Virus record (IMG/VR): IMGVR_UViG_3300025436_000005
Span: 1-41,284 of that record
Direction: 5' to 3' (one strand)
DNA from: a virus
Length of the DNA stretch: 41,284 nt
Shown: piece after piece, positions 2,594 through 33,003 of the stretch
Layout: each line of letters opens with the position of its first letter
Position numbering within the stretch: position 1 is the stretch's first letter
Notes under the pieces: model-generated
The model's database searches: none
Told to the model about the DNA's origin: nothing
What the model saw: only the letters and a program-made list of their open reading frames with translations
Translations under genes and position numbers: made by a program

Positions 2594-2727
2594 TCGTCGT
2601 CCTCCAATTCTTCCTCTTCCAGTTCGTCCTCATCATCGTCTTCGTCGAAGAGATCCTCGTCATCTTCATCTGTGCCCTCGTCATCGATGTCACTGAGGCA
2701 CGTCTCGATACGCTCTGCCAGTCTCAT
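2590..2727 (-). CDS. very acidic 45-residue protein
   Basis: The product begins MRLAERIETCLSDIDDEG and then consists almost wholly of Asp and Glu, with a few Leu, to its end. It starts at ATG 2727, overlapping the polymerase stop (ATGA), and its TGA overlaps the GTG start of the clamp loader. Both junctions point to translational coupling. An acidic tail-like peptide between polymerase and clamp loader could be a protein-protein contact or DNA mimic, but this is inference. The opposite strand reads as poly-serine, a shadow. Confidence 0.55.
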   Translation of the reverse strand: MRLAERIETCLSDIDDEGTDEDDEDLFDEDDDEDELEEEELEDDE

Positions 2728-7576: not shown

Positions 7577-8581
7577 CTACTCGACGGAGGAGAGGCACGA
7601 TACGTATGAGAACTTCCCCGTCGAAATCTTCAGCCGTCCCTGCCCGACCACACAGTCGTTGGTCCGCTCGGTGATCTCGACCAGCAGCTTCGGAGCAATC
7701 ATGAACGAAACGTCCCCGGCGAACTTGACCGACTTCTGCTCCTCAAACTTACCATAGGAGCCCTCACCACGAATCAGCAGCTTGCCATCCCTCATCTTGA
7801 CGAAGATCTGATCGTTCTCGACGTTCTCCGAGCTGAAGATTTTCGCCTTGTCAACGGCGTCCTTCAACCCACCGGGCAGCGTGACCGGCTCTCCCTCGCA
7901 GGCAAAGATCGGGTCGAGACTCTCATATGCTTCCTGCCATCGCCGGCAGCTCAACACCAACCCAGCGGCGTTGCGGAAATGGACCCATGCCTCACCTTCA
8001 GACATCTCGGTCATCCCCAACTGCGGGATGTGCTTGATCGATGCCTGACGAATCAGGCAGGACTTCCTCACTCCGGTCTTGACCGGGAACCGAGCCGCCT
8101 GGAAGTTATCGCACGCCTCAGCGTAGTCGGGATGCAGATGGACGCAGGTCAGGTTGAAGTTGGTATCCTTCCCCTGACTCGCGACCGATTGAACGATGCT
8201 AATCGCTTCAAGGAATTCCTTGTCCAGTTCCACCCATTCGGTTGGGGTCTCGATCGAGTCGACCGGCAGGTTGACCTGTTCCTCCATCACGATCTCAGCC
8301 CGCCGCTTGTTTCCTTTGACCTGGATCTTGCCTTGGATCGGGGTGATCTCAAGCTCATCCTCCGGCAGCTTAGACAGCAACTCCATCAATGGCTTCGCGA
8401 CCACAGCCCCAGATAGCCCCTTGACTGGGCTCTCAATGGCGCAGGCAATCTCATCGTTGAATGTGAGAATTCGATCATTCCGAAACACGAAACACGAACT
8501 CTGTTCAATCAACTCCCTACTAGCCAAGCCGGGGGACACGGCCTCAAGACGAGACAAGAACAACTCACGATTCACGCTCAT
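7577..8581 (-). CDS. dnaN: DNA polymerase sliding clamp (DnaN-like)
   Basis: 334 residues with the three-fold beta-clamp pattern and no long insertions. Recognisable pieces are AVVAKPLMELLSKLPEDELE (domain 1), INxx-type strands, and LPVDSIETPTEWVELDKEFL, matching the domain 1/2 linker of bacterial clamps. A C-terminal third holds a cluster of beta strands (FSYVSCLSSVE at the end). It would encircle DNA as a ring and hold the polymerase at 2724-4211, loaded by the ATPase at 1670-2593. ATG 8581 overlaps the stop of the DpdA-like gene upstream (ATGA). It is divergent, with no canonical C-terminal MPMRL. Confidence 0.8.
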   Translation of the reverse strand: MSVNRELFLSRLEAVSPGLASRELIEQSSCFVFRNDRILTFNDEIACAIESPVKGLSGAVVAKPLMELLSKLPEDELEITPIQGKIQVKGNKRRAEIVMEEQVNLPVDSIETPTEWVELDKEFLEAISIVQSVASQGKDTNFNLTCVHLHPDYAEACDNFQAARFPVKTGVRKSCLIRQASIKHIPQLGMTEMSEGEAWVHFRNAAGLVLSCRRWQEAYESLDPIFACEGEPVTLPGGLKDAVDKAKIFSSENVENDQIFVKMRDGKLLIRGEGSYGKFEEQKSVKFAGDVSFMIAPKLLVEITERTNDCVVGQGRLKISTGKFSYVSCLSSVE

Positions 8582-9606
8582 GCCATAGACTCCTTTTCAG
8601 TATTTTCACAGTGCCAAAGAAACAACTCGTATGCCGCGCCTCGCTGGGACAGCAGATCGGGGTAGGCGAATAGACGGTTCTTGATCATCTTCTCGATTCT
8701 AAACTTAACGCCACCACCGGCGAGATAAACCCTCTTGATCGGGACTGCCTCGTTGACCCGCAAGAAGAAAACCGCGTTGACCAGCTTTCTGCATTGGTCA
8801 TAGTTTGTCACGCCCCTCTCAACTATCCGTATGATTCGCTTCCCCCTCTCCCCCCACCGCTCCAAACCTCTCTGTAGCTTGTAATCGGGTGGGACGTCGA
8901 CTTCTTCCGAGTGGCCATACGTTACGCCACAAGAGGCTAGGTAGTCATCGAGGTTGTTACGAGCGATCGGACTCATATCCCTCGTATGACTATTAAACGC
9001 CCCTCGCATGCTAGAAACATCAGAAGTGTATAGCCTAATCGGGTCCAACGAATAGTCGAATTTTCCCCCCACAACGTGAGGAGTGCATATCTTCCCAAAT
9101 GATCCACCCAGTACCCATGAAGCAGAGTCCACCGAATGCCACGGAAAGTACTTCATCATGTCGAGATCAGACACAGCAAAACCGTGGACTGCACGGAGGC
9201 TCTTCCCCTCCGAATCGACCAGATACGGGCGAATCTTCTGAAACCAGTCCATTCGCAATCGTGGTGATTTCGCCCGCCCGAAGCCTATCCCAATGTATGG
9301 AGCCTTACTGTCGAGGATCTTATCGAGCCATTTCAATGACTCTAGATGATGATATACGGGGATCACCTTCTCGATAGGGAGATGGCGGACCATCTCGTTG
9401 TAGTTCTCCCAGCTTCTGGCGGCGGCGCCGTCGATTAGCTCCTCCGTATGCTCCTCGTGTTCCAGCTGAGAACCTGGAATAACATCCAGGCTAACATAGT
9501 AGTCAGCCTGCGGATGCCTCTTGCAAAAACCTATGTACTCCTGCAGATCAATCGGCACCTGACGCGTCCACGCACTCCAGGCACCGCAGTCAAGCATAAA
9601 CGGCAT
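8578..9606 (-). CDS. DpdA-like DNA 7-deazaguanine transglycosylase, divergent copy
   Basis: 342 residues of the TGT-like fold, paralogous to the next gene upstream. Shared landmarks are the N-terminal Asp motif (MLDCGAWSAW here, MLDSGAFSVW there), YYVSLDVIPG, VIPVYHHLESLKWL, and PWHSVDSASW in the barrel. In TGT the DSGGF Asp and a later Asp do the base exchange. Here the Ser-Gly-Ala-Phe part is changed to Cys-Gly-Ala-Trp, and HGFG has become HGFA. It would exchange guanine in DNA for a deazaguanine, or act as a partner or specificity variant. It overlaps the paralogue's stop by 17 bases. The enzyme class is fairly sure, the activity of this copy less so. Confidence 0.75.
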   Translation of the reverse strand: MPFMLDCGAWSAWTRQVPIDLQEYIGFCKRHPQADYYVSLDVIPGSQLEHEEHTEELIDGAAARSWENYNEMVRHLPIEKVIPVYHHLESLKWLDKILDSKAPYIGIGFGRAKSPRLRMDWFQKIRPYLVDSEGKSLRAVHGFAVSDLDMMKYFPWHSVDSASWVLGGSFGKICTPHVVGGKFDYSLDPIRLYTSDVSSMRGAFNSHTRDMSPIARNNLDDYLASCGVTYGHSEEVDVPPDYKLQRGLERWGERGKRIIRIVERGVTNYDQCRKLVNAVFFLRVNEAVPIKRVYLAGGGVKFRIEKMIKNRLFAYPDLLSQRGAAYELFLWHCENTEKESMA

Positions 9607-10627
9607 CGGCTGCCTCCCTCTGAATCACTTCAAGGTACTGGGTGAACGACTTATCAAGTCCAGCGTATGAGTACAGTCGTTTAGCGACCACCCGAGCCAT
9701 CCGCTCCCGATCAGAGTCCCCGCATCCAGCAAAATAGATATGCTGGACAGTGGAAGCCGGCAGTCCTTCCTGATGCTTGATGAACACAGCGTTGACGATA
9801 CGTCTGGCATCGCTGCTAGTACGAACGCCGGCAACCGTCTCACGGACGATCTTGGTCTTGGTCTTATCTAGCCACTGCTCAATCCCATCGACTCGTTTGT
9901 ATCCTGCGGGAACGTCGATCAGCTCGAATTCGCCAAGCGAAACATCGCAGTATCGCAGCCAATCTTCAACGTGTTTCCTCCACACCGGCAGCATGGTATC
10001 ATAGTGGATCTGAAACTCCCCTTTCCACCCAGACTGGGGTGTCATTGCATTGACTGCGGCCTTGAGATCGAAATCGAATTGACCATTGGTCTTCCGCGGC
10101 ACCCATATCTTACCAAAAGCGGCCAGCACCAACCAGCTGGCCGAGTCGACCGAATACCACGGGAACCGTCTGAGTAGCTCAAGGCTGTTGATCCCGAATC
10201 CATGAGTCCGCACGATCGGCTTGCCATCCGGTGCAACAACGCCACGAACTGAATTCAGCCACCCAATCACAGCCCGCCTGTTGACAGATCCCGCCGTCCC
10301 GCCAAGCCCAATGTATGGGCACTCAATCGCCAACATCTTCTCCAACCACTTAAGGGACTCCCCGCGGTGGAAAACCGGGATCACTTTCTCAAAGTCCAGC
10401 TTACGAATCATCCGCAGGTAGTTCTTCCATCCCCGTGCGGCAGCGTCCTCAATGTCCGCGGCGGTCGGAGAACTATCAGCAGTCCCTGGGATCACGTCAA
10501 GGTTGACGTAGTAAGAAATCGCTGGATGAGTCTGGCAGAAGTCAATGTACTGGTCGATGTCGATTGAAGCCCCAGACTTCCAGACTGAGAAGGCACCAGA
10601 GTCGAGCATCAGCAGGCGGTCCGTCAT
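9590..10627 (-). CDS. dpdA: DpdA-like DNA 7-deazaguanine transglycosylase
   Basis: 345 residues matching phage DpdA. The opening MLDSGAFSVWKSG carries the nucleophile-region Asp, followed by YYVNLDVIPG, VIPVFHRGESLKWLEK, YIGLGG, HGFGIN and PWYSVDSASW, which together trace a TGT-type barrel. DpdA inserts preQ0 or a related 7-deazaguanine into DNA by replacing guanine. It lacks the tRNA-binding Zn site of bacterial TGT, as expected for phage members. The upstream neighbour is the PRTase-FolE fusion and the downstream neighbour the second DpdA-like copy, all with coupled starts. This is the core of the proposed DNA-modification block. Confidence 0.83.
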   Translation of the reverse strand: MTDRLLMLDSGAFSVWKSGASIDIDQYIDFCQTHPAISYYVNLDVIPGTADSSPTAADIEDAAARGWKNYLRMIRKLDFEKVIPVFHRGESLKWLEKMLAIECPYIGLGGTAGSVNRRAVIGWLNSVRGVVAPDGKPIVRTHGFGINSLELLRRFPWYSVDSASWLVLAAFGKIWVPRKTNGQFDFDLKAAVNAMTPQSGWKGEFQIHYDTMLPVWRKHVEDWLRYCDVSLGEFELIDVPAGYKRVDGIEQWLDKTKTKIVRETVAGVRTSSDARRIVNAVFIKHQEGLPASTVQHIYFAGCGDSDRERMARVVAKRLYSYAGLDKSFTQYLEVIQREAADAVYA

Positions 10628-10628
10628 G

Positions 10629-11498
10629 CTAACCTCGGATCAACGACAAGAGTTCCTGACGAGCGGGAGCCTTGTCCCGAAACACACCAGTTAGGCTCGA
10701 GGTCACCATCTCACTGCCCTGCTTGTTGACTCCTCGACAGGTCATACAAAAGTGCTTCGCCTCCAGGATACAGGCAGAGCCGAGTGGCTTCAGATACTCG
10801 TCCAGAGCCGCCGTCACCTGCTGACAGATTCGTTCTTGAATCTGAAGCCGGCGAGTGAATACCTCGAGCAGCCGGACCAGCTTCGATACCCCAATCACCT
10901 TGCCATTCGGCACATACGCCAAGTGGGCCTGCCCGAAGAAGGGCTGCATATGATGCTCGCAGACTGAGAAGAACTCGACGTTGCGAACCAACACCATCTC
11001 GTCGCAAGCCCCCTCCTCGAACACCTTGAAGACAGAGGCGGGGTCGATCTTGTACCCCGAGAAGATTTCACCATAGCTGCGGATCACCCGAGCCGGCGTC
11101 TCCCTCAATCCTTCACGATTCGGATCGTCTCCGACGAATTCAAGCAGCCGTCGGATGTTTTCCTCTGGTCCATCCTGCTCATCGGTCTCCCACGGAAACA
11201 CTATCCAGTCGGAATCTTTCCGATTCCTTTTATCAACCAAGACCACAAATGGCTTGTCCGGGAAGCGCCCATTGTATCGTTGCTTAGTCACACCAGAGTC
11301 GATGATGTCATCGACGATAACATCTGCCTCCTCTGGGGTACTCACGAGTCGCATGGCGCCGATCCTACGAATCGCAAGGGCCGCCATCGCACCGCCGCGA
11401 GGAACTCCATAAAGTGCGACACCATCCGGGATGCGACTGCGTGCTACAGCAGCGCAGCTCTCAACATCACGCCACGTCAAAACCGTTCGCTCTGTCAT
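10629..11498 (-). CDS. folE: xanthine/guanine phosphoribosyltransferase-like domain fused to GTP cyclohydrolase I
   Basis: 289 residues in two domains. Residues 1-110 resemble a compact XGPRT: LTWRDVESCAAVA at the N-terminus, YGVPRGG at 30-36, the PRPP loop DVIVDDIIDSGVT at 59-71, and DWIVFPWE at 97-104, matching the base-specificity hood (WIEQPWD in E. coli Gpt). Residues 112-289 are FolE: GLRETPARV, zinc ligands C180 and H183 in CEHHMQPFFG, VIGVSKLVRL, RRLQIQERI, and the third ligand C251 in HFCMTCRGV. FolE makes dihydroneopterin triphosphate from GTP, the first step of the deazaguanine pathway. The fusion suggests guanine salvage feeding GTP to FolE. The start overlaps the upstream stop (ATGA). 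Confidence 0.9.
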   Translation of the reverse strand: MTERTVLTWRDVESCAAVARSRIPDGVALYGVPRGGAMAALAIRRIGAMRLVSTPEEADVIVDDIIDSGVTKQRYNGRFPDKPFVVLVDKRNRKDSDWIVFPWETDEQDGPEENIRRLLEFVGDDPNREGLRETPARVIRSYGEIFSGYKIDPASVFKVFEEGACDEMVLVRNVEFFSVCEHHMQPFFGQAHLAYVPNGKVIGVSKLVRLLEVFTRRLQIQERICQQVTAALDEYLKPLGSACILEAKHFCMTCRGVNKQGSEMVTSSLTGVFRDKAPARQELLSLIRG

Positions 11499-11698
11499 TT
11501 GCTCCCCTTCTCGAAAACGATCCCACCATCCCCATCGACCGGCATCAAGTGGGGATTGTCCCCATAACTGATCTCAACAGGGATACCATCAGGGAACGCT
11601 TTGCAGGCCGGCCTCTCATTGGTCTCGGCGTTATCGTCCGACTTAGTCCCCTGAAAATGAACGCACTGACGGGTGAAGCATTTCGGCACTGCCAACAT
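11495..11698 (-). CDS. small Cys-containing protein of a widespread uncharacterised type
   Basis: 67 residues. Cysteines are placed as CFTRQC near the N-terminus and ACKAFPDGIP in the middle, followed by a GD-x-GIVFE ending. This CxxxxC/C-x-A-F-P-D-G-I-P pattern resembles a small family seen in many bacteria, function unknown. It may bind a metal. It is coupled to the PRTase-FolE gene (ATGA) and follows the metallopeptidase gene by one base, so it is co-transcribed with the modification genes. Confidence 0.6.
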   Translation of the reverse strand: MLAVPKCFTRQCVHFQGTKSDDNAETNERPACKAFPDGIPVEISYGDNPHLMPVDGDGGIVFEKGSK

Positions 11699-11700
11699 CG

Positions 11701-12453
11701 TTATTTTCCTTTCCCGATTACATCGTCGAAGTATTTCGCCAGCGCCTTCGGCATCTTGGCACCGTTCTTAGTACCATAACTAGGATGCGTGTAGGCGAGC
11801 AGTCCCTCGCAGAACATCTCAGCTGGATGGTCCGCCGCGTACTGACTCAACTTGCGGAGCTCACTCTTCGGGGTCACCTTCCAGATATTGACCAGACGGC
11901 CAGGCTCCCCGACACCCTTCCCTCCGTTGGCGGCGAGCATTTGCTCAAGAAGATGGTGGCCGAACTCATGGGTGGCAATATCTGAGACTGCATCACTCAA
12001 CGAGAACTGCCCGCCCTTCAAATGGTCCGATGTTGCGGGATGCCCGAAGCCGGCGACCTCAGCCGTGCCGGTCTCTTTATCATACTGTCCAGTCGTCGCT
12101 CCCTGCCCATTCTTCGAGATCCAGAACGGTGTCCCCTTCAACCGAATACCCATCTCAGACTTTGGCAGCTGGTCAGTCAACTTCTGGCAACGCTCTGCAA
12201 CACCAGCGAGTGACTTCTCAACCTCCACCGCAGTCTGCTGTATCTCTTCCTTGTCAGCCTTGCGCTTCAGTCTCCCCAGTGTCTCTGGATCGACCGACAC
12301 CTTGACAGACACCCTCGCCGAGGACCCACCAGATCCTCCCCCACTGGCAAACCGCCCGCGTTGATCGTGGTTCGGGTTCTCTTTGATGTCGATATGAACC
12401 TTCAATCGACCGTCAACGATTTCAGACTTCACAGTTGCGTCTGTTTCACTCAT
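11701..12453 (-). CDS. putative zinc metallopeptidase with phage head-type N-terminus
   Basis: 250 residues. The segment IATHEFGHHLLEQML carries HExxH (H-E-F-G-H) with an extra His, the signature of zincin metallopeptidases, and a downstream AEMFCEGLLAY offers a Glu ligand candidate. The N-terminal part has KENPNHDQRGRFASGGGSGG, a motif I associate with phage minor head or head-morphogenesis proteins. A lone zincin domain with this lead could be a maturation or structural protease. It lies inside the deazaguanine block between queE and folE, which is odd for a virion gene. Substrate unknown. Confidence 0.6.
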   Translation of the reverse strand: MSETDATVKSEIVDGRLKVHIDIKENPNHDQRGRFASGGGSGGSSARVSVKVSVDPETLGRLKRKADKEEIQQTAVEVEKSLAGVAERCQKLTDQLPKSEMGIRLKGTPFWISKNGQGATTGQYDKETGTAEVAGFGHPATSDHLKGGQFSLSDAVSDIATHEFGHHLLEQMLAANGGKGVGEPGRLVNIWKVTPKSELRKLSQYAADHPAEMFCEGLLAYTHPSYGTKNGAKMPKALAKYFDDVIGKGK

Positions 12454-13112
12454 TTCAGCCCCACGATTTTCTGCATTTGGAGACAGAGACGATAGCCATA
12501 CTGCATGCAGCTCTGAACCGTCGCGTCAACATTCCGTTTGTTTGCTTCCGGATCCTGCTCATCCAGAGGCTGCAGATAGATCTCGGATCGAGGGAAGTCC
12601 TCGGGAGGACGAGCTGGTCGCATCCCACCCAAAGCCGTCAGCGGCAGGCCGTCCGTATCAACTTGACCCGCCTGGAGTACGTACTTGAAGGCATAGGGCC
12701 ACCGCTCCCGCGCGATGCCTGGCGTCTTGGGTGAGCAAACAACCACAGCCCGAGAATGAAGCCCTGGAAGATGAAGAATGCCGTTGGTTTCAATCTGAAC
12801 TTGCGTGCCACGATCAATCAGCAGATCCACTAGCCGAGTGATGTCCTGGCGGAGCGGCTCTCCGCCCGTCAACACAACCAGATCAGCGCCACCCGTCAGT
12901 TCAAGCAGATCCTCCACCAACTCAAACCGACGACCAGTAGTGTAGTTCGTATCACAAGCAGGACACTGAAAGTTGCAACCAGCCAATCGGATAAAAGTTG
13001 CTGGTCTACCGGCAAACGGCCCCTCGCCCTGGATCGTCTTCCATACGTCTACGATCTCAAGAGAATCGGGGCTGCTATGATCTCGGTGTTCGGGTGGTTG
13101 TTTATTCAGCAT
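12450..13112 (-). CDS. queE: QueE, 7-carboxy-7-deazaguanine synthase (radical SAM)
   Basis: 220 residues from ATG 13112, where the start overlaps the previous stop (TAATG); a longer frame exists but would run far into the upstream gene. QGEGPFAGRPATFIRLAGCN leads into the Cys triad C46, C50 and C53 in CNFQCPAC, which binds the [4Fe-4S] cluster. VVLTGGEPL is the SAM-binding GGE motif, and IETNG follows. It converts 6-carboxy-tetrahydropterin to CDG, the ring-contraction step of queuosine-type base synthesis. Its spacing of three then two residues between cysteines is typical of short QueE. QueD is two genes upstream. Confidence 0.92.
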   Translation of the reverse strand: MLNKQPPEHRDHSSPDSLEIVDVWKTIQGEGPFAGRPATFIRLAGCNFQCPACDTNYTTGRRFELVEDLLELTGGADLVVLTGGEPLRQDITRLVDLLIDRGTQVQIETNGILHLPGLHSRAVVVCSPKTPGIARERWPYAFKYVLQAGQVDTDGLPLTALGGMRPARPPEDFPRSEIYLQPLDEQDPEANKRNVDATVQSCMQYGYRLCLQMQKIVGLK

Positions 13113-13339
13113 TAGTCGATCCGTCCGATTCTCCACTGCTTCTCTGCCTGCTTCCGGATAAGATAACGTCTGTCCAGGCACTGACTCACGACCCAAACTA
13201 GTGTCCGAAGATTTGAATCGGCTTTATCAACCACGACAGACTGACCACATTCCATCGCACGCAGAGCCTGAATCAGCTCCCTTCTGAAAGATTCCCCTGC
13301 CTGGGGACACCGGACAACAGGGACATTTTCGATCTCCAT
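13112..13339 (-). CDS. small hypothetical protein, possible DNA-binding
   Basis: 75 residues between queD and queE, coupled to queE by TAATG. It has a helical first half (FRRELIQALRAMECGQSVVVDK) and a C-terminal QAEKQWRIGRID tail. This A-x-M-x-x-G-x-S-V then basic-tail layout recalls short phage proteins that carry a helix-turn-helix-like fold, but I see no decisive motif. Function unknown. Confidence 0.5.
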   Translation of the reverse strand: MEIENVPVVRCPQAGESFRRELIQALRAMECGQSVVVDKADSNLRTLVWVVSQCLDRRYLIRKQAEKQWRIGRID

Positions 13340-13348
13340 GATTCGGTC

Positions 13349-13822
13349 TCACTTCACGTAGTCAGCGCTGCAATTGGGGGTTTCGAATAATCGAACTCGT
13401 ACCACATCAATATCGTACGAACGCAACAATTCACTCGCTACTTGAAACAGCACCCGGGCCATGTTCTCGGCGGTCGGATTGCCGTCCAGCACAAACGGCT
13501 CTTTCCCACCCAACACGGCATCGACCTGACCATTTGCACCCTCAAGAATCTGCTCACCGTCTTGCCGCAAAACAGTCAGCACATGCAGCAGCGGGTCGGC
13601 AGGATGAAGAATGAGGTTGTGGTCCCAGTTTTGGTCGATCCATCCCCCGACCTCAGTTTTGATAACCCCGAAGTCAATCACGCGGCCAAGCTGATCAAGT
13701 TCTGGCGCAGTAACTGTCACCTCGGCGACGTAGCGGTGGCCGTGAAGATGTTTGCACTTCGATTCGTGCTTCAATACCCGATGACCTGCGTCGAATTCAA
13801 GTTTGCGTGTGATACTGATCAT
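13349..13822 (-). CDS. queD: QueD, 6-carboxy-5,6,7,8-tetrahydropterin synthase
   Basis: 157 residues with the QueD/PTPS signature. FDAGHR (H14) and SKCKHLHGHRY supply the catalytic Cys C23 and zinc ligands H27 and H29. DFGVIK, WDHNLIL (catalytic Asp-His), PTAENMA and ETPNCSADY (C-terminal Glu for pterin binding) follow in the usual order. It turns dihydroneopterin triphosphate into 6-carboxy-tetrahydropterin, linking FolE to QueE. Its Cys-x-x-x-His spacing and length agree with QueD rather than PTPS. Start ATG 13822. Confidence 0.93.
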   Translation of the reverse strand: MISITRKLEFDAGHRVLKHESKCKHLHGHRYVAEVTVTAPELDQLGRVIDFGVIKTEVGGWIDQNWDHNLILHPADPLLHVLTVLRQDGEQILEGANGQVDAVLGGKEPFVLDGNPTAENMARVLFQVASELLRSYDIDVVRVRLFETPNCSADYVK

Positions 13823-15121: not shown

Positions 15122-17815
15122 TCAAAAGCAACTCAGAACAAACGGCCTTGACAACGCCAAGCAGTGTGCTATGTTTATGCATCTATATTCGTTGAACTCG
15201 TCCTCTCGCCGAACGATCCAGTTCAACCTCCGAATCCCCTTCTCTTGCTCTTCCTTCGTAACATTGATCCCAATCATCCCAGTCACGTGGGCGTTTTTGC
15301 GTTTGTCCTCTGAGAACGAACCTTTCCCTAAAGTGGCTCGCTCATACGCCCCAGAGTTCGCCTGCGTAGCTGTCACCAGCAGGCAGTGAAGTTCCTGTGA
15401 TGCCCGCCTCATCTGCTTCCAGATCAGGTTCGTACCATGACGGAAATCATTGTTCCCGCTGACACGAGGTGGCTCCAGATTATCGGCGTAATCAATCACC
15501 AGAATATCCGGCGTCCCCCAACCATCCCTCTCCCATCCTTGCAATATTGATCGAATCCCCTCCATCCCTATGGCAGAGTTCGGATGACAGGATAGCTTCA
15601 AATACGGTGCTGTCCGTCCCTGTGTTATCTTCTCACAGGCTTTTACAGCCTTCCCCCATGACAATGCGTCGTCGAATTCGATCTCCTCGTGCTCGACTGT
15701 CACTTCGCCGGTCTCTTTGTTCTTTTCGATCTTCGTCGGCTTCTGAACCTTCTGTGGCCTGAACGGGTGCTTGGTAGCCCGCACCATCATCCTCTTCATA
15801 ATTTGCCGTTCGCTCATGTCTCCGACTTCGAAGAATGCGACCTTCTTCTTCTGCAGCATTCCCCGCCAGGCGACCTCCATCAACCACCAGGTATTATGCA
15901 CTATACAATCATTCGCAACAAAGCTATGATGAGGCGGCACAGTCAAATCATAGGTTCGTCGATCCCCAACGGGCTCTATTGAAGTCACCTCATCCCAGAG
16001 GACATGAGAATTCATATACAGATCGTAAGTGCTAGTGCCGGCCGCCTTGGCGAAGGACTTCCTCATTATCGGGCATTTCTTAGCTATCTGCTCTCGAATG
16101 AATCCCAACTGATCAGTGCCCATATATGCACGAAGTGCGTGGTTCTTTCTAACGCGCTTACCCCTACCAACACCAAGAGAATCTGGAACTGGAGAAGAGG
16201 AGAATTCATGCTCTAGTTCAGAAATAAACCTACCGGCCACCTGATGAGGGAACTTGTCCAAAAAGGATTTATGCAGCCCAACAGCCGTCACAGGTCTCCT
16301 CTTGTAAGACATCATGTTGATTTCGTTGGTGAATAGTTGAGCATTCTCTGCATCACTAATAGACAACGTCCAATGACAGAACCGTTTTCCCTCCCCATTG
16401 TAGGAATCACCAGACTTTATTCGATGAACTATCCCGAACCGCGTCAGTAGGTGACCGATCTGACGCACCATTCGCTCGTTAGCCAATCCAACACCCACTT
16501 CTCCGCTCTTCAGCACATACCCATCGCACGACATGAATATACGAAGGAATAACGCAACTTGATCTTTCGGACACGAAAATACCGCAGCCGGGATAATCTT
16601 TGTCTTCGCAGAGTGACCAGCAATACCCAGTCGTCTCATTAAAGATGTGGCCCCGTGTAAGTGGTAACTGATCCCATCCTTCCTATGCCCAAACCCTAAA
16701 CGATCACAACACCCCAGGAAATCCTCTATCAATTCGTCATCCGTGTTCGTAAATGTACTGCATATCCCATTCTTCTTCCTAGTCCCGTTCTTCTTGCAAT
16801 ACAACTGAACACAGCACCCCTCGGCAAGCATATACGCCAGAAACTTTAGTTCGTCTTCGTCCATCCGACAACCACCGAATACATCCAGTTTCTTTGGAAC
16901 GGCTACAAAATCCCCGACCTTGAGATCTGAGAGGATCTTCCATCCGTCTGGAGTAAGGTACTTATGATTCCCTGTGGTGATCACCCGCCGACCAATCCTC
17001 GTCTCCATCTCCCAACATGGCTTTTTTCCATTATCCCAAAAATCACTCACTGCCACGAACTCAATTCTTTGGGTCTCCTCATTCAACGACAGAATTCTTC
17101 TCGAATCTTCGGATAGCACAATATCCTCAATAGTGCTGAGGCTTCCATCTTCAAGAAGAATCTCCATATCGCCGGCTATACACTTACCAGATTTCTCAGC
17201 ACCGAGGAACGCAAGGAACGCATCGCGCTCAAACGCATTGCCGAAGAATTTCGCCAAGTCCCCAGGCCACTCAATCAGCGATTCTGTTTCCTCCTCAAAT
17301 ACAGCGCGAATCGCCTCCTGATCCTCCAGCACATCAATCCCAGCCCCCTCACCCAACTCGATCTTGCCGAATGATGAAACCTTAGCCAGCGCTTTCTCAT
17401 GTTCACCAAACTCCAGATCCCCTTGGATTCCCTCGACCAGCCGCGATAGGGCCACAGTCTGAAAATGACGGCCGGCGAGGTCGATCACATACTCTGGATT
17501 CTGCTTGGCCGCCAGCTCCTCATACTCGTCTGACAGGCTAGAAAGGAATCGGTCAACCAAAGCAACCGTGTCTTTGTCCTTCTCGCCATTGGACGCCCAG
17601 GATTGGAAGATTGCTTCAATCGAAGCTCCTGGGGCCTTCTGATACTTCAGAAAGTATTTACAGCACCACATGCCGACAAGATTCGACCACTTGGACTTGA
17701 ACATACCATCCTGGCGGTTCCACTTGGCAGCGATCTTGCCGGCGACGACATTGTCGACGATCATACCCGTGAGCACGGTTCGTTCATCACCACCCGAATG
17801 ATCCTTAACCTTCAC
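15122..17815 (-). CDS. dnaB: DnaB-type replicative helicase interrupted by an in-frame intein
   Basis: 897 residues. Residues 1-211 plus 642-897 form a RecA-like helicase; residues 212-641 are an intein. Joining them restores Walker A as GAEKSGK-T, with the intein between the Lys and Thr. Walker B is PDILVIDYAD (769-778), and LLVTATQANSGAYER (812-826) matches the DnaB H3 region. It would unwind the fork with the primase at 25278-26147. The start is GTG 17815, overlapping the TGA of the gene before (GTGA). Without splicing, the P-loop is broken and the helicase inactive. The N-terminal domain is short compared with E. coli DnaB, as in T7/SPP1-like phage helicases. Confidence 0.93.
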   Translation of the reverse strand: MKVKDHSGGDERTVLTGMIVDNVVAGKIAAKWNRQDGMFKSKWSNLVGMWCCKYFLKYQKAPGASIEAIFQSWASNGEKDKDTVALVDRFLSSLSDEYEELAAKQNPEYVIDLAGRHFQTVALSRLVEGIQGDLEFGEHEKALAKVSSFGKIELGEGAGIDVLEDQEAIRAVFEEETESLIEWPGDLAKFFGNAFERDAFLAFLGAEKSGKCIAGDMEILLEDGSLSTIEDIVLSEDSRRILSLNEETQRIEFVAVSDFWDNGKKPCWEMETRIGRRVITTGNHKYLTPDGWKILSDLKVGDFVAVPKKLDVFGGCRMDEDELKFLAYMLAEGCCVQLYCKKNGTRKKNGICSTFTNTDDELIEDFLGCCDRLGFGHRKDGISYHLHGATSLMRRLGIAGHSAKTKIIPAAVFSCPKDQVALFLRIFMSCDGYVLKSGEVGVGLANERMVRQIGHLLTRFGIVHRIKSGDSYNGEGKRFCHWTLSISDAENAQLFTNEINMMSYKRRPVTAVGLHKSFLDKFPHQVAGRFISELEHEFSSSPVPDSLGVGRGKRVRKNHALRAYMGTDQLGFIREQIAKKCPIMRKSFAKAAGTSTYDLYMNSHVLWDEVTSIEPVGDRRTYDLTVPPHHSFVANDCIVHNTWWLMEVAWRGMLQKKKVAFFEVGDMSERQIMKRMMVRATKHPFRPQKVQKPTKIEKNKETGEVTVEHEEIEFDDALSWGKAVKACEKITQGRTAPYLKLSCHPNSAIGMEGIRSILQGWERDGWGTPDILVIDYADNLEPPRVSGNNDFRHGTNLIWKQMRRASQELHCLLVTATQANSGAYERATLGKGSFSEDKRKNAHVTGMIGINVTKEEQEKGIRRLNWIVRREDEFNEYRCINIAHCLALSRPFVLSCF
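15893..17182 (-). other. intein coding segment within the helicase (430 residues, LAGLIDADG-type endonuclease)
   Basis: The intein runs from C212 to N641 of the helicase. Block A begins CIAGDMEILLEDGSLS. Block B is GNHKYLTPDGW. The C-terminal blocks end HHSFVANDCIVHN and are followed by the +1 residue Thr. Cys at the N splice site, His-Asn at the end and Thr after it are all standard splicing residues, so it looks active. Inside are two LAGLIDADG-like motifs: LKFLAYMLAEGCC near residue 324 and LFLRIFMSCDGYV near 422, a homing endonuclease. Insertion in the P-loop matches the known preference of inteins for active sites. Confidence 0.9.
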
Positions 17816-22708: not shown

Positions 22709-22736
22709 CTTTCGGTCTCCTCGTCACGGGCCGCGT

Positions 22737-22763
22737 GGCCCTGAGTGTTGCGTGGTTGGCTAC
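22737..22763. repeat. left direct repeat flanking the small-gene cassette
   Basis: GGCCCTGAGTGTTGCGTGGT, continuing TGGCTAC, matches the sequence at 24950-24976 with two mismatches in 27 bases. It partly contains a hairpin copy and the stop region of the 22760-22948 gene. Direct repeats at both ends suggest recombination of the intervening 2.2 kb. Confidence 0.65.
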
Positions 22764-22948
22764 GCCGTCGCCCGGCTCGGTACGTCCATCTGTTCGTCCG
22801 TGTCTGCGTCTCTGACACTTCCCCACGCGCCGTCATTCCACTGCGCGACCGTGATTTTTCGGCTCGCGATGTCCGCGGCATCTGCCAGCGTTTCGGCCTC
22901 GATATCGTCGCGATCTCCGCCGTCAGTCCAAAATTCGTAGGTCTTCAT
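22760..22948 (-). CDS. small hypothetical protein
   Basis: 62 residues starting MKTYEFWTDGGDRDDIEAET, followed by LADAADIASRKITVAQWNDG. The E-x-x-A-x-x-A-A-x-I-A pattern with W suggests a DUF2188-like mini-fold, similar in style to the 24580-24744 product. A hairpin repeat and GGGGAGG lie upstream. Kept as real by its place in the cassette. Confidence 0.55.
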   Translation of the reverse strand: MKTYEFWTDGGDRDDIEAETLADAADIASRKITVAQWNDGAWGSVRDADTDEQMDVPSRATA

Positions 22949-22987
22949 CTTCCCATCCTCCCCGTTGCGGGCCGCGTGGCCCTAGTC

Positions 22988-23224
22988 CTACAGTCGCGAG
23001 TAGTTGTCGTCAGTATGGATTCCAGCCGCAGTGATTGCCCGCTGGCACTGCCGGACGCTTCCGCGGATGGTCTCGCTTCGCACGCTATCGTCGCTCCTAT
23101 CGTGCCAACCGATCACGATCTCCAGTCGCCCGCGGCCAATCGGCCGCTCGGTGATGAAAGGCGTCACGATCTGGCCGGCGTGGTATTGGCTGAGGTTTAC
23201 GTTTCTGGCTTCTGTCGTCCCCAT
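22988..23224 (-). CDS. small hypothetical protein
   Basis: 78 residues beginning MGTTEARNVNLSQYHAGQIV; a RGRLEIVIGWHDRS strand pattern and an Arg-rich helix (RQCQRAITAAGIH) follow. Its start follows a hairpin repeat with a strong ribosome-binding site, and its stop lies just before the next repeat. No family recognised. Confidence 0.55.
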   Translation of the reverse strand: MGTTEARNVNLSQYHAGQIVTPFITERPIGRGRLEIVIGWHDRSDDSVRSETIRGSVRQCQRAITAAGIHTDDNYSRL

Positions 23225-23263
23225 CTTCCGTCTCCCCGTTGCGGGCCGGTTGTCCGGCCCTGG

Positions 23264-23322
23264 TCTGATCGTCTCCCCACATCACCGGCCCCTCACACGG
23301 GCCGGGGTCTGGGGAGATCAGA
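23264..23322 (-). promoter_or_regulatory. large two-tier stem-loop between cassette genes
   Basis: Outer arms TCTGATC and TCTCCCCA (23264-23279) pair with TGGGGAGA and TCAGA (23310-23322). Inside, CCGGCCC (23285-23291) pairs with GGGCCGG (23299-23305). It overlaps the stop of the 23318-23536 gene and precedes the hairpin repeat at 23234. No T tract follows on the minus strand, so it is unlikely to be a simple terminator; an RNA processing or regulatory site is possible. Confidence 0.5.
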
Positions 23323-23536
23323 CCGTAGCCAGTTGCGCGGCAGAGTAATCCGATTCCGTGGCGCTACGCTCGACGCGCACCGACCGCGGCTCGGAATACA
23401 CCGGACCATAGAACGCCGGGCCGTATTGAGTCCACCGGATCGACCGCCACCCGACCCGCTCTCCGTCAGTCACGGCTCTCTCTGCCTCACTCATGATAGG
23501 CTCGTCGGACACCAGATTCCAGTTTTTCGTCCTCAT
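23318..23536 (-). CDS. small hypothetical protein
   Basis: 72 residues from ATG 23536, which follows the hairpin repeat at 23547-23572. The product starts MRTKNWNLVSDEPIMSEAER and contains DGERVGWRSIRWTQYGP. A longer frame to 23590 would run through the hairpin and is not preferred. No family recognised. Confidence 0.5.
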   Translation of the reverse strand: MRTKNWNLVSDEPIMSEAERAVTDGERVGWRSIRWTQYGPAFYGPVYSEPRSVRVERSATESDYSAAQLATV

Positions 23537-23567
23537 TTTCTCACCCTCCTTTGCGGGCCGCGTGGCC

Positions 23568-24218
23568 CTAGTGTCGTAACAGTCCGCCAACCGTAGCCAC
23601 TCGTTCTAGTCGGTTGGCCGTATCCGCATACGGCTCGCCAGATCGCGACCACAGGTGTAGCCGGATCTCGCGTCCGACGACGTGGACAATCTCGCACGTG
23701 CACACCGGGCCGAGTGTGCGGCGAGTGTCCATCACCAACCGCGAGTCAGCCGGCACATCGTGGACTTGCTGCGTATCCGTCTCGTATTCCGTCACGGTCA
23801 TCGGCCACGGCAGCCTGGCCTTGCGGATCGTGCCTCGCGCCCGACCGCCGTGGCGCTGATTGCGCCCGTCGTAGTCGAGATCCTGGGGCAGTGCCAGTAG
23901 GTTGTCAATAACGCCGTCGATGCGGACGATGCCGCACCACAGAATCACGTCGCGATGCCGCTCAGCATTCCGCCTCCGATTCGTCGCCCGACGTTCGCGA
24001 CGTAATGGTCCGCTCAGTCGCCTCCGCACCTCACGGAGATCGACCGGCGTAGGCAGGTCTGCCATTGTCGCCAAGACCGGCTCTTGGCCGAAAATCTGAA
24101 TCAATCCGGCCAGAGTCAATCGGCTCTCGCCAGCGTGCTCCGCGGCCAAGCCGGCCACGGCTCCACTTGCTGCGGCAGTCACGAGACCGCCGCCAAAAAA
24201 CTGTCTACGTGTCAACAC
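23568..24218 (-). CDS. protein with a twin-arginine (TAT) type signal peptide, function unknown
   Basis: 216 residues from GTG 24218, chosen because GGAGGAGGTG lies four to thirteen bases upstream. The N-terminus VLTRRQFFGGGLVTAAASGA has the twin-arginine core T-R-R-Q-F-F, a hydrophobic stretch and a small-residue segment before A-G-E-S, so export through the Tat system is likely. The mature part is Arg-rich (RREVRRRLSGPLRRERRATN) with a beta-rich end (CTCEIVHVVGREIRLHLWSR). Secreted phage proteins are uncommon; it may act in the envelope. The stop sits within a hairpin repeat copy. Confidence 0.6.
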   Translation of the reverse strand: MLTRRQFFGGGLVTAAASGAVAGLAAEHAGESRLTLAGLIQIFGQEPVLATMADLPTPVDLREVRRRLSGPLRRERRATNRRRNAERHRDVILWCGIVRIDGVIDNLLALPQDLDYDGRNQRHGGRARGTIRKARLPWPMTVTEYETDTQQVHDVPADSRLVMDTRRTLGPVCTCEIVHVVGREIRLHLWSRSGEPYADTANRLERVATVGGLLRH

Positions 24219-24543
24219 GATACACCTCCTCCAGGTAAGATTGATCCCCACGTGCCGCGCGGGTAGAAAACTCGCCCACGCCACCCGTCCGCGTGTTACC
24301 GTCTATGGCCATATCCGCGGAGTAGATCGGCAGCGAACCGACCGACTGCGGATAGAGCGATTCCACCAGCCGCAACAGCGCGGCTTGGTCTGGCCAATCC
24401 TCGCCGCTGGCCCACCGGCGCACCGTGCGGTCAGATACTCCGCAGCGTCGACCGATCTCGCGGGCACCGAACTCGCTGACGATAGCGAGTGCGAAGCGGG
24501 CTGCGTCTGTCGAGTGTCGTCGGGTTCCGCGTGGCCAAACCAT
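24205..24543 (-). CDS. helix-turn-helix DNA-binding protein
   Basis: 112 residues. EFGAREIGRRCGVSDRTVRR followed by WASGEDWP is a clear HTH: helix A, turn, and recognition helix V-S-D-R-T-V-R-R-W. The rest is short and unlike full repressors, but cro/Cox-sized regulators look like this. It would bind DNA, possibly regulating the surrounding small-gene cassette. Its end overlaps the start region of the TAT protein gene; the start follows a hairpin repeat with GGGGAGGATG. Confidence 0.7.
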   Translation of the reverse strand: MVWPRGTRRHSTDAARFALAIVSEFGAREIGRRCGVSDRTVRRWASGEDWPDQAALLRLVESLYPQSVGSLPIYSADMAIDGNTRTGGVGEFSTRAARGDQSYLEEVYRVDT

Positions 24544-24579
24544 CTCGTCATCCTCCCCGTTGCGGGCCGGTTGCCGGCC

Positions 24580-24744
24580 CTAGAACTGCCAATTGAAATC
24601 AGACTCCAGCATTTTGCCAGCCGACGGCGCCGAAGCGGCACTCTCGGCCTCGTCGCGAGACAGGAACTCCGTCCACGCTCCGTCTTCGCGGACTACCGAC
24701 CAGGATCCGGTTTCCCCGCCCTCTCTGATAGTGTATCTCTTCAT
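24580..24744 (-). CDS. small DUF2188-like protein
   Basis: 54 residues beginning MKRYTIREGGETGSWSVVRE and continuing DGAWTEFLSRDEAESAASAP. The W-x-V-x-x-E-D-G ... F-x-S-R-D-E-A-x-x-A-A order matches the DUF2188 mini-fold. Its TAG is the T-A-G of a hairpin repeat. ATG 24744 has GGGTGG upstream. It is shorter than the usual automatic cutoff but well supported by its boundaries. Confidence 0.55.
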   Translation of the reverse strand: MKRYTIREGGETGSWSVVREDGAWTEFLSRDEAESAASAPSAGKMLESDFNWQF

Positions 24745-24926
24745 CTTTCCACCCTCCCCGTTGCGGGCCGGTTGGCCCTAGTCCCGCGATGCCAATCGCA
24801 TCGCGTCCGAACACCACCAGCAGCCATTGCCGTCCACATAATCGTAGTATCCGCGGCGGGCTCGGATACCACCGTAGCAGACTCACCGAGCACTTGTTGC
24901 GCGTGTGCCGCGTCATGGCACCGCAC
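24741..24926 (-). CDS. uncertain small reading frame, possibly frameshifted
   Basis: From GTG 24926 this frame gives VRCHDAAHAQQVLGESATVV and continues through the hairpin repeat to a TGA overlapping ATG 24744. Another frame in the same stretch gives RRGYYDYVDGNGCWWCSDAM with a stop inside the hairpin repeat, as its cassette neighbours have. The two halves look like one protein broken by a frameshift. I give low weight to either. Confidence 0.3.
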   Translation of the reverse strand: MRCHDAAHAQQVLGESATVVSEPAADTTIMWTAMAAGGVRTRCDWHRGTRANRPATGRVER

Positions 24927-30087: not shown

Positions 30088-30110
30088 GACGGCTAGATTA
30101 TCTAGCCGTC
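30088..30110 (-). terminator. Rho-independent terminator of the SNF2 gene
   Basis: A perfect 10-bp stem (GACGGCTAGA at 30088-30097 with TCTAGCCGTC at 30101-30110) and a 3-nt loop, overlapping the gene stop at 30098-30100. It is followed on the minus strand by TTCTTGCTTATT. Confidence 0.85.
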
Positions 30111-31498
30111 TGGAGAAGGCCGGGCTGCCTCAGCTCATCGAGTAGCTGGTCCAGGATATTGAGATCATCACCTATAGGTCCACCGTCCAGAACGGTTCGG
30201 ACCGTCTGTTGTTTCTCTTGCAGAACGCGGCAGAGCTTCTCTTCGATAGTCCCGTTGGCGACTAGATAATAGTACCATGCAGTGGCGTCCTGGCCGATCC
30301 GGTGGGTCCGGTCTTCCAGCTGGGTGAGGTCGGCCGGCCGCCAAGGCAGCTCGGCGATCACGCTAGTCGAACAGACGCGTTGAAGGCCATCGACGCCTTG
30401 ACCGGCCGCCTGGATGTTGCCGATGAACACCCGCGTCTTTGGATCTCGCTGAAATTGGTCGACAGCCGCCTTCCGCATTCGGCCAGTCACTGATCCGTCT
30501 ACCACAACGTGCTTGCCGAGCAGCCTGCGGTTTAGTGCCTCGACCATCTTGATATGGATTGCGAATACGACCAGCTTCTCATCGGTCTCGGTGAGGAACT
30601 TGTTACACCAGTCAACCACCGACCTCAGCTTCAGCTTGGCGCATAGGCGGAGAAGATAGCCGAGCTGAGTGACCTGCTGGGCCTTCATCGCGGATGCTAC
30701 CCTGTCTCCCTGCCGCTGCTTCAACCATCCGATGAAATCGTCCTTCGCGAGTTCATACTCTTTTGGATCGGACAGCTCGACAGGAACCACACAGCGGATC
30801 TTCTCGGGTAGGTCTTTGAGAACGTCCTTCTTCAACCTCCGCACCATGCATGTTCTGGTCAGCGTAGAGTGTAGGATGTCCAAGTTGGATGCCCCGGAGA
30901 AATTCCAGCCCCACGGAGTTCGTCTTGGTTTGCAGAAGCGTTGGGCGAACGCCCAGAATGAGGGATAGAGATCGGGACGGAGGATGTGGAGTATTGGCCA
31001 GAGTTCTGCCGGCCGATTGACCAATGGCGTGCCAGATAGGGCGATCACGTGCTGTGCAGCTCGGCCAAGTTTAACGCTCGCCTTGGTACGCTGCGACGTT
31101 CGGCTGAGCAGATACTGGGACTCGTCGAAGATCACAGTACCAACTCCCCGCTTCAGCAGGGCCGGCAGCCAGAATTTCAGAATGTCATAGTTGACGATGG
31201 TCATCCGCGGCGGCTCTGATTTCCGTCCCTTGGATGATGGGACCCGCTGGCCCTCGAGAATGGTGGGGCGAATCCCCAGACGGAGCGCCTCATGCTCCCA
31301 CTGATACTTGACGGAGGCGGGGCAGACGACCACGGCCGGGAACGATTGAATCCTCCCCCGCTTCAGCAGCCAGAGAGCGACGAGAGTCTTGCCAAGGCCC
31401 ATATCCAGAGCGCAGAGAGCTCGCCCATCAAAATCTTCTACGTCGTACACGACGTCCTTTTGGTACTCAAAGGCGATTGGTCTCTCAGTGGTGGTCAT
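30098..31498 (-). CDS. SNF2/SWI2-family helicase-like ATPase
   Basis: 466 residues with both RecA lobes. Walker A is ALDMGLGKT (30-38), DESQYL (125-130) is motif II in the DExx style of SNF2 proteins, LSGTPLVNRPAELWPIL (154-170) is motif III, and AAGQGVDGLQ plus WRPADLTQLEDRTHRIGQ in the C-terminal lobe give motifs V and VI. SNF2 family phage proteins are common and may translocate on double-stranded DNA to clear roadblocks or repair forks. No extra DNA-binding domain is seen. It follows the non-coding RNA terminator by about a dozen bases. Confidence 0.93.
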   Translation of the reverse strand: MTTTERPIAFEYQKDVVYDVEDFDGRALCALDMGLGKTLVALWLLKRGRIQSFPAVVVCPASVKYQWEHEALRLGIRPTILEGQRVPSSKGRKSEPPRMTIVNYDILKFWLPALLKRGVGTVIFDESQYLLSRTSQRTKASVKLGRAAQHVIALSGTPLVNRPAELWPILHILRPDLYPSFWAFAQRFCKPRRTPWGWNFSGASNLDILHSTLTRTCMVRRLKKDVLKDLPEKIRCVVPVELSDPKEYELAKDDFIGWLKQRQGDRVASAMKAQQVTQLGYLLRLCAKLKLRSVVDWCNKFLTETDEKLVVFAIHIKMVEALNRRLLGKHVVVDGSVTGRMRKAAVDQFQRDPKTRVFIGNIQAAGQGVDGLQRVCSTSVIAELPWRPADLTQLEDRTHRIGQDATAWYYYLVANGTIEEKLCRVLQEKQQTVRTVLDGGPIGDDLNILDQLLDELRQPGLLQTAR

Positions 31499-31512
31499 GG
31501 GTGATCCGCTAG

Positions 31513-31551
31513 AATAAAACGACCGCCTGCCAGTTGCCCTACGTGGGCGGT
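31513..31551 (-). terminator. Rho-independent terminator of the non-coding locus
   Basis: ACCGCC (31522-31527) pairs with GGCGGT (31546-31551) around a GCCC/GGGC inner pairing, followed on the minus strand by CGTTTTATTC. It ends the structured region at 31513-32338, just before the SNF2 gene start. Confidence 0.75.
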
Positions 31552-31938
31552 TCTCTGACTGTCTGTCCCAGATCAGAGTTTCTATGATCCTCCTATTTTT
31601 CCTCGCTCGTTGGAACGAGTTAGCAGGTTAAAATCGATAGACACTCTGGCAAGCGGTCGAATACGCGCGGGGCTGAGGGCCTTTAGCCCTGATGCGTTGG
31701 ATGCGATCAGCGGTAGGCTTTTTGCTACTGCCTTGCGAGCAGCTCACGTACACCGTTTGATGGACCGCCAGCCCCTATCCCTCGGGAATACAAAAGGCCC
31801 GGACCTTACACCACAGCGGTGTCAACCGCCGCCAACCAACCCACTCTGGACTTCCGGGGTATGAGCTCGGCGTGCATTCTGCCTGTTAGAGCAAGGGTCT
31901 AGTCCCTCCGCTAACACGGAGCGGCCTATTTCAAAATA

Positions 31939-32054
31939 TGGTCTGGGCGGCAGGATTTTCACCTGCATCCTGGTTCCGTAAACCGGATAGCGCTTTGTCC
32001 GCCAGAACCTATGCATTGGCTTGCTAGCGTCCTAGCTACCTACACCACGCCCAG
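31939..32054 (-). tRNA. tRNA-like element with encoded CCA, non-standard
   Basis: The 5' CTGGGCG (32048-32054) pairs perfectly with CGCCCAG before A-CCA, with CCA at 31939-31941. A D-arm-like GTGT...ACGC follows the 5' arm, and a T-arm-like hairpin, GCAGG-TGAAAAT-CCTGC, has the non-standard loop TGAAAAT (TTCAAAT usual). A long extra segment lies between, with hairpins such as ATCC-GGTT...AACC-GGAT. The total is 116 nt, too long for a usual tRNA, and no sure anticodon can be named (ACG is one option). It begins five bases after tRNA-Pro. A decayed or unusual tRNA, or part of the larger RNA, is possible. Confidence 0.4.
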
Positions 32055-32059
32055 TTAGT

Positions 32060-32132
32060 CGGAATGGCTGGATTCGAACCAGCGGTCTCCTGCTCCCAAA
32101 GCAGGCGGATTACCAGGCTATCCTACATTCCG
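32060..32132 (-). tRNA. tRNA-Pro (anticodon TGG)
   Basis: A 73-nt cloverleaf. The acceptor CGGAATG/CATTCCG has seven pairs. A GGATAGCCTGGTAATCC-type D arm follows. The anticodon arm CCTGC-TTTGGGA-GCAGG gives anticodon TGG, reading CCA for proline. The T arm is GCTGGTTCGAATCCAGC, fully canonical. No CCA is encoded after position 73. It is embedded in the structured region at 31513-32338. Confidence 0.95.
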
Positions 32133-32363
32133 TGAAGACAACTACCTATAGGATGCGGTGCCTACTCGTCGCTAGCGGATGCCAAGCCGCAGGTGTTGTC
32201 TTGTCGATAGCACCAATGCCGAGGCTCATGGACGTTGACTGATGAATCATTGCTTCTACCCGCTATGTCGGGCATGACTCTTTCGCATTAAAGTATTTGG
32301 CGTTCCCATCCCGTCAAACCAATCTGCCTATCAGTCAAAATCCACCGGGGCCGACGTCGTCGA

Positions 32364-32417
32364 TCACATCGCGGTCATATAGCGGCAAACTCGAGCATGC
32401 TGCTTTAGGTGCTTCAT
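32364..32417 (-). CDS. possible 17-residue peptide
   Basis: From ATG 32417 with AAGGAAG upstream, the frame reads MKHLKQHARVCRYMTAM, then TGA. It lies between the sigma-factor stop and the non-coding RNA. It may be a leader peptide or chance. Confidence 0.2.
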   Translation of the reverse strand: MKHLKQHARVCRYMTAM

Positions 32418-32442
32418 GGTCTGCTTCCTTTCTTGGTAGATG

Positions 32443-33003
32443 TTAGTCAGCAAGAACTCGTTGAATTTCAAAGAACGTCTCGGCGACTCGCTTCGCAGTC
32501 CAGCCGATCCCGTCTAGGTAGGATCGTACTGTACTACGAAAATTTCGTGGCTGACCGCCCTTTCCTGCCACGATTTCTGCCAGTTCTTGGGGCGTATCCA
32601 CGACCAGCTTGATGACGGTCGTGGCATCTTCGGAGAGTCCCTCGAGCACATCCTCAACTTTCCAGTTGTGAGACGGTCGGGCGATATCGCAATCCTCAAC
32701 CGACTCGTAGCGAGCGTGCTCAACACACCGAGCCCGTACGTTATCGACTAGCTCATATGTCACCAGCTGCCGAACCCAGGCCGAGAACGGGATTCGACCA
32801 TCGAACGTATCATAAGCCTCGATGAAAGCGACATTCGCCTCAGAGACCATGTCGTCGAAGTGGCCGCCATACTTCTTGACGATCCTCCAGACCGTGTGAT
32901 AGATCAAATCCTTGACCTCGACGTAGGTCTCTTCTGCGGTCGCCTTCCGACGTTCATCCCATCGTTCCGTACGCTTCATCAGATGTGCTGTGGCGAATCC
33001 CAT
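32443..33003 (-). CDS. phage-encoded RNA polymerase sigma factor (sigma-70 region 2)
   Basis: 186 residues. IYHTVWRIVKKYGGHFDDMV and EANVAFIEAYDTFDGRIPFS, then WVRQLVTYELVDNVR, are sigma region 2.1-2.4: core-binding helix, the Y-D loop, and the promoter-melting W. A region 4-like helical part follows (DTPQELAEIVAGKGGQPRNF). Short, ECF-like in size, and unlike the housekeeping sigma. It would direct host RNA polymerase to phage promoters. ATG 33003 has TAAGGAG upstream; a later Met (MKRTERW) is less likely. Its own promoter at 33045-33073 looks sigma-70-like. Confidence 0.85.
   Translation of the reverse strand: MGFATAHLMKRTERWDERRKATAEETYVEVKDLIYHTVWRIVKKYGGHFDDMVSEANVAFIEAYDTFDGRIPFSAWVRQLVTYELVDNVRARCVEHARYESVEDCDIARPSHNWKVEDVLEGLSEDATTVIKLVVDTPQELAEIVAGKGGQPRNFRSTVRSYLDGIGWTAKRVAETFFEIQRVLAD

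Follow-up and report, generated by a model that had tools for sequence, protein, structure and literature searches.

Among described systems, those nearest to the locus analysed here are the GOLLD and ROOL RNAs, the tRNA arrays of phages and the RNAs that mimic tRNAs. GOLLD forms a 14-mer RNA cage and increases during lysis, phage tRNAs are taken either to be codon supplements or to replace tRNAs that host defences cut, tRNAs within longer transcripts are excised, and the Bacterial Y RNA-like YrlA and tmRNA are tRNA mimics. GOLLD occurs in phages and prophages near tRNAs, and its linkers sometimes carry tRNAs (PMC12286853), and phages without a recognised GOLLD or ROOL produce other RNAs of ~800 nt, such as that of ICP1 (PMC7567579). 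RNase P recognises the acceptor plus the T-arm, aided by a 3' RCCA (compare PMC12710915).

The window (the whole stretch of DNA that was analysed, a virus record of 41,284 nt) has recognisable genes nearly all on the minus strand, including a clamp loader, a two-part family-A DNA polymerase and a DnaB-like helicase with an intein, and also among them are genes for ligase, primase and several 7-deazaguanine functions. The polymerase (2724-5946) is divided over two frames (2724-4211 and 4699-5946) with a MazG-like pyrophosphohydrolase gene in between, and the intein of the DnaB-like helicase (15122-17815) is of the LAGLIDADG type. Two queuine tRNA-ribosyltransferase-like genes, a GTP cyclohydrolase, QueE and QueD (8578-13822) make up a 7-deazaguanine pathway, which possibly serves to modify DNA. 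Between genes at 22717-24784 there are hairpin-like repeats of 26-52 nt (CTCCCCGTTGCGGGCCG..TGGCCCTAG), and a 40-nt intergenic element with the minus-strand form AATAAY-N14-GAATAACTA, a candidate phage promoter, is present in five copies (25218, 28314, 29032, 29943 and 36380), none of which was found upstream of the gene-free block described below.

The block lies between the genes for a phage sigma factor and an SNF2-type helicase (Table 1). A preliminary description had placed here, at 31513-32338, a non-coding RNA locus with no credible protein frame, the largest unexplained block in the window. In a coding-signal scan, positions 31441-32700 were among the longest coding-signal-free stretches of the window and throughout the block the coding scores of both strands were either negative or close to zero. 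The longest stop-to-stop frames had no match in Pfam or PHROGs except for two below threshold, and six-pattern scans with two of these frames found no relatives in viral contigs and, for one of the two, none in genome contigs either. These results bear out both the gene-free block and the lack of a credible protein frame, and the reading as non-coding RNA genes is retained, with the bounds corrected to 31499-32442 and the minus strand as the RNA strand. Directly past the sigma factor, at 32364-32417 on the minus strand, 17 residues (MKHLKQHARVCRYMTAM) may be encoded by a leader frame, with GGAAG as a stretch resembling a ribosome site.

Table 1. Coordinates of the gene-free block, its flanking genes and the elements within it
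Feature	Position	Strand	Evidence and remarks
Upstream flank, gene for a phage sigma factor with sigma70 region 2	32443..33003	minus	PF04542 7.6e-9; phrog_351
Gene-free block (0.94 kb)	31499..32442	minus	negative coding score; flanked by sigma-factor and SNF2-helicase genes
5' unit, 9-bp stem UUGACUGAU/AUCAGUCAA	32235..32338	minus	folding energy within shuffles
Unit, 8-bp stem AAGACAAC/GUUGUCUU	32135..32202	minus	2 nt upstream of tRNA-Pro; folding energy within shuffles
tRNA-Pro, anticodon UGG, no encoded CCA	32058..32132	minus	ARAGORN; RF00005 68.1 bits
tRNA-like element, 116 nt	31939..32054	minus	acceptor CUGGGCG/CGCCCAG, T-arm GCAGG-UGAAAAU-CCUGC, ACCA
Possible unit, GGGGCUG/CAGCCCC	31669..31775	minus	abutting hairpin AGGGC-UAAAG-GCCCU; low confidence, region z +0.8
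3' structured domain	31520..31659	minus	14-bp closing stem CGACCGCUUGCCAG/CUGGCAGGCGGUCG with inner hairpins; inverted repeat
Downstream gene, SNF2-type helicase (SNF2/Helicase_C)	30098..31498	minus	PF00176 4.4e-28; phrog_62

The sigma-helicase gene pair occurs in other phage contigs, where the sigma factors are 30-34% and the helicases 44-53% identical to those of the window. The block is absent from all four orthologous pairs: the two genes abut in L002 and L009, and small open frames lie between them in L007 and L008. No convincing match to the block was present in ten relative contigs, distant blastn against named phages gave no whole-block homologue, and frame-pattern scans plus exact motifs across viral and genome contigs recovered only an identical contig (3300004693_000086) and chance matches. 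As the block is absent in relatives and has no homologues in these searches, it was either inserted in the lineage of the window or lost in the others.

The setting of the locus, a virus record with a tRNA-Pro inside, is the one in which GOLLD is found (phage or prophage, near or containing tRNAs), and an identity as GOLLD or ROOL, or else as a new class, had been suggested for it. The covariance model of GOLLD (RF02032, conserved 3' region) and that of ROOL (RF03087) both gave no match in the locus at E<=10, with a positive control that covered ROOL only, the ROOL locus of plasmid pMP118 being detected at 130.4 bits in a like search. The GOLLD or ROOL identity is therefore not upheld. The tRNA was the sole Rfam family found in the block, without any other noteworthy match at E<=10, and by these model searches the block as a whole is outside the known giant-RNA families. 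It follows as a caution that a gene-free, tRNA-bearing phage block is not automatically a GOLLD-like giant RNA.

The tRNA-Pro, claimed earlier from the letters of the sequence, was recovered by two programs and has the full cloverleaf and anticodon of a canonical tRNA. CCA is over-represented among the A-ending codons of the phage, making up 25% of its Pro codons where A-ending codons are 15% of codons overall. The tRNA-like element, likewise claimed earlier, starts 4 nt after the tRNA-Pro and is well above chance in its geometry. Its T-arm (5 bp, 7-nt loop) is joined without a gap to the 7-bp acceptor, and a discriminator A followed by CCA completes the acceptor and N-CCA end of a canonical tRNA. 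A filter for this geometry (7+5 Watson-Crick pairs, i.e., 12 bp of acceptor and T-arm, a 7-nt loop and N-CCA) found the element as the sole case on both strands of the window and gave no match among 400 shuffled versions of the locus; applied to about 1 Mb of DNA from other phages, it returned six matches inside known tRNAs and one that was A+T-rich. Further, the last 35 nt at the 3' end of the element have 86% identity to part of a tRNA cluster in a Vibrio phage, a part that comprises a tRNA's T-arm and acceptor. The 5-bp T-stem is present, and the T-loop, UGAAAAU, departs from the canonical UUCRANY; the interior is oversized and has no clear anticodon loop, ARAGORN did not detect the element even with introns allowed, and a covariance model built from 21 phage tRNAs scored it at 6.4 bits. 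Based on the T-loop, the long interior, the unclear anticodon arm, the ARAGORN result and the low score, the element is not an ordinary tRNA. Because the tRNA-Pro has no encoded CCA, the two genes also differ in 3' processing.

Relatives of the element were sought with a T-arm motif picked after the element of the window had been seen, and the skeleton is present in only three sequences. An exact scan for GGTGAAAATCCTGCCG returned 19 viral contigs, mostly as chance matches, with upstream bases completing the 5-bp T-stem in four of the 18 other contigs. In a 398-kb jumbo-phage contig (L119), the element belongs to a tRNA array, where it starts 2-3 nt past a tRNA, and is about 125 nt long with an acceptor UUUCCCG/CGGGGAA and no CCA. 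In L112, the element is a solitary RNA, about 140 nt long and closed by a 9-bp stem (GGCUGGUUG/CGGCCAGCC), that fills a 176-nt intergenic gap. The 5' acceptor strands of both were identified by partner search, for which the chance of a 7-bp partner in shuffled upstream regions is 7% (L119) and 3% (L112). When the skeletons of the window, L119 and L112 are aligned, 36 of 36 cells hold standard pairs, albeit in only three sequences, and four acceptor pairs, all outside the searched pattern, are changed on both sides.

In a further contig (L121), the T-arm motif opens a ~740-nt non-coding block upstream of terminase and portal genes, in which units of 99-122 nt, each closed by a stem, form an array (L121:2230-2783; stems of 10, 8, 7 and 7 bp). 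Such stems are not rare there (12 of 200 shuffles); all four, selected without a CCA criterion, are followed by N-CCA, and a 6-nt spacer GUUUAU (GTTTAT) comes after the first two units. Compared with Rfam at the gathering score, the L119, L112 and L121 loci matched no known family other than tRNA, and in named phages the elements of the three contigs had only weak tRNA-like matches. A new RNA class may be represented in the locus, but the part of the block with relatives elsewhere is the ~116-nt tRNA-like element and not the whole block.

Several other tRNA-like genes were seen in these and other phages. One in L119 (7697-7770, minus strand), with a T-loop GGCAGAA and an ACCA end, scores 26 bits with the phage tRNA model and was overlooked by ARAGORN and by Rfam at the gathering score. 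An unannotated tRNA-like gene with a CAU anticodon (L005:1995-2072; 20 bits) lies inside the annotated tRNA array of Mycobacterium phage ScoobyDoobyDoo. In Gordonia phage Mollymur (L132), unannotated tRNA-like genes flank a tRNA-Asn on either side (1452-1527 and about 1768-1876), all within a gene-free block of ~0.8 kb, and the second has an apparent insertion of about 34 nt in the anticodon arm. No description of tRNA-like phage RNAs of this kind was found in the openly accessible literature.

The analysis shows the two elements, how they are spaced and that the tRNA-like skeleton recurs in other phages, and the interpretation with the highest probability, roughly 55%, is that the block is a phage tRNA cluster in which a normal tRNA-Pro(UGG) is accompanied by a non-canonical, probably non-decoding tRNA-like RNA, both excised by tRNA-processing enzymes. 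The 4-nt spacing between the two is that of tandem tRNA genes. The block would most likely be co-transcribed with the sigma-factor and helicase genes on the minus strand, RNase P and 3'-processing enzymes would cut the tRNA-Pro and the tRNA-like unit from the longer transcript, and the tRNA-Pro would serve in decoding CCA/CCG codons. The tRNA-like RNA would take no part in decoding and would be a stable tRNA mimic with a CCA end, most likely serving enzymes that handle tRNAs as a decoy or substrate, with processing, CCA addition, EF-Tu and tRNA-cutting defences as candidate partners, and the stable 3' domain may protect or delimit the end of the transcript before the helicase gene. Points against this interpretation are the 6.4 bits given by the tRNA model, the restriction to three sequences with a motif picked after the first had been seen, the 7% and 3% of shuffles in which an acceptor partner arises by chance, the L119 element, which is without CCA, and the difference in 3' processing between the two genes.

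As a lead, the tRNA-like unit, a variant of the tRNA-like genes in phage arrays, hints at an unrecognised group. It can tentatively be suggested that phages possess non-decoding RNAs of about 100-140 nt, built on a tRNA scaffold, that form a class not recognised so far, are processed by tRNA enzymes and have an interior free for another role. In such a class, the acceptor stem, T-arm and CCA may be kept for processing and protection by tRNA enzymes, and its members may occur singly (L112), in tRNA arrays (L119 and the window) or in stem-closed, CCA-ended arrays (L121). If real, the class would be missed by standard tRNA finders, and part of the RNA gene content of phages would have been overlooked by those now in use. 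An RNA of tRNA shape that is not plainly able to decode and yet has the parts recognised by tRNA enzymes would point to a role as decoy or scaffold.

It is rather unlikely that the block is instead one ornate phage RNA of 0.8-0.9 kb, a new class working in the manner of GOLLD or ROOL and having a tRNA in the linker between its 5' and 3' domains. The size, phage setting and internal tRNA fit such an RNA, given the tRNAs sometimes held in GOLLD linkers (PMC12286853) and the ~800-nt RNAs, as in ICP1, of phages with no recognised GOLLD or ROOL (PMC7567579), and so do a very stable 3' domain and tandem closing stems. The preliminary description had reported at least three long-range closing stems, and four of 7-14 bp are present (9 bp, 32338/32235; 8 bp, 32202/32135; 7 bp, 32054/31943; 14 bp, 31659/31520); the best tandem arrangement exceeds all of 200 shuffles and is equalled in three of 42 further windows of the phage. 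A stem at 31800/31677 competes with the possible unit at 31669..31775 as an alternative. On the minus strand, an 826-nt block had a folding z of about -3 to -4 relative to shuffles and ranked sixth of 49 equal windows of the phage in folding stability, the five more extreme windows being all or mostly coding. The description of the locus as strongly structured applies to the 3' domain (z -6.9 for 31513-31665, a value reached in 0 of 100 shuffles), the tRNA-Pro (z -2.9) and the tRNA-like element (z -2.6 to -3.3), but not to the middle (31666-31925; z +0.8) or the 5' part (32133-32345; z -0.5), which are no more stable than shuffles, and a uniformly structured 0.8-kb RNA is rejected. The supposed terminator at the end of the locus has a 14-bp stem that encloses 112 nt, and UUUUAUU comes after it, about 20 nt upstream of the helicase start codon; it is not a classical intrinsic terminator and is missing from the terminator-scan list. 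A single 0.8-kb RNA is doubtful because half of the block is no more stably folded than its shuffles and because a tRNA gene and a CCA-ended unit would be expected to be excised from it. Also against it are the rank among windows and the lack of a GOLLD or ROOL match and of a whole-block homologue, and hence of covariation, in the searches described above.

Next in order, and likewise unlikely, is a decaying tRNA array with a live tRNA-Pro; the tRNA-like element and a 42-nt CAU-anticodon-like piece (at about 31853-31894) would be its remnants, left in intergenic junk. The CAU piece resembles the unannotated CAU tRNA-like gene in the ScoobyDoobyDoo array and is the second-best match to the tRNA model within the locus, half of the block is unstructured, and relatives are without the block. 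Conversely, the tRNA-like element has a perfect acceptor, T-stem and CCA, the same odd T-loop is found in unrelated phages, and the CAU piece, as a tRNA remnant, is not significant across the window, its pattern elsewhere occurring in unrelated sequence with no tRNA near. A long structured 5' leader regulating the helicase gene is very unlikely: the stablest domain does end close to the helicase start codon and the surrounding genes all have the same direction, but the upstream tRNA and CCA-ended unit would be excised from such a leader, the orthologous helicases have none, and riboswitch families are unmatched. The remnant of a protein gene, to which only the small open frames that L007 and L008 have in this position point, is scarcely credible, as coding signal is absent and protein families are unmatched in every frame.

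Read as a tRNA cluster with a normal tRNA-Pro and a non-canonical companion, the block can be placed beside the known systems as follows. The block shares its phage setting, size, internal tRNA and structured 3' domain with GOLLD (RF02032), but has no match to it at E<=10 and middle and 5' parts that are no stabler than shuffles; with ROOL (RF03087) it shares the phage setting, size and tRNA linkage, but again there is no match at E<=10, in contrast to the 130 bits of a known ROOL. The hairpin loop of the tRNA-like element, GGUGAAAAUCC, is a T-loop fold also seen in the L5 motif of the cobalamin riboswitch, GGUGnAAnUCC, whereas the architecture around it in the block is tRNA-like and a cobalamin riboswitch had no match in the locus at E<=10, nor in L119, L121 and L112 at the gathering score. 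Like YrlA and tmRNA, the element is probably non-decoding and borrows tRNA parts, but neither an mRNA-like part nor a long Ro-binding stem is recognised and neither RNA has an Rfam match in the locus, on which ground tmRNA was rejected. From canonical tRNAs it differs in its length of 116 nt, in UGAAAAU in place of UUCRANY, in the unclear anticodon loop and in a score of 6 bits, whereas the 7-bp acceptor, 5-bp T-stem, 7-nt loop and ACCA are shared with them, and the block resembles phage tRNA arrays (RF00005) in its tandem units a few bases apart, one of them a canonical tRNA-Pro.
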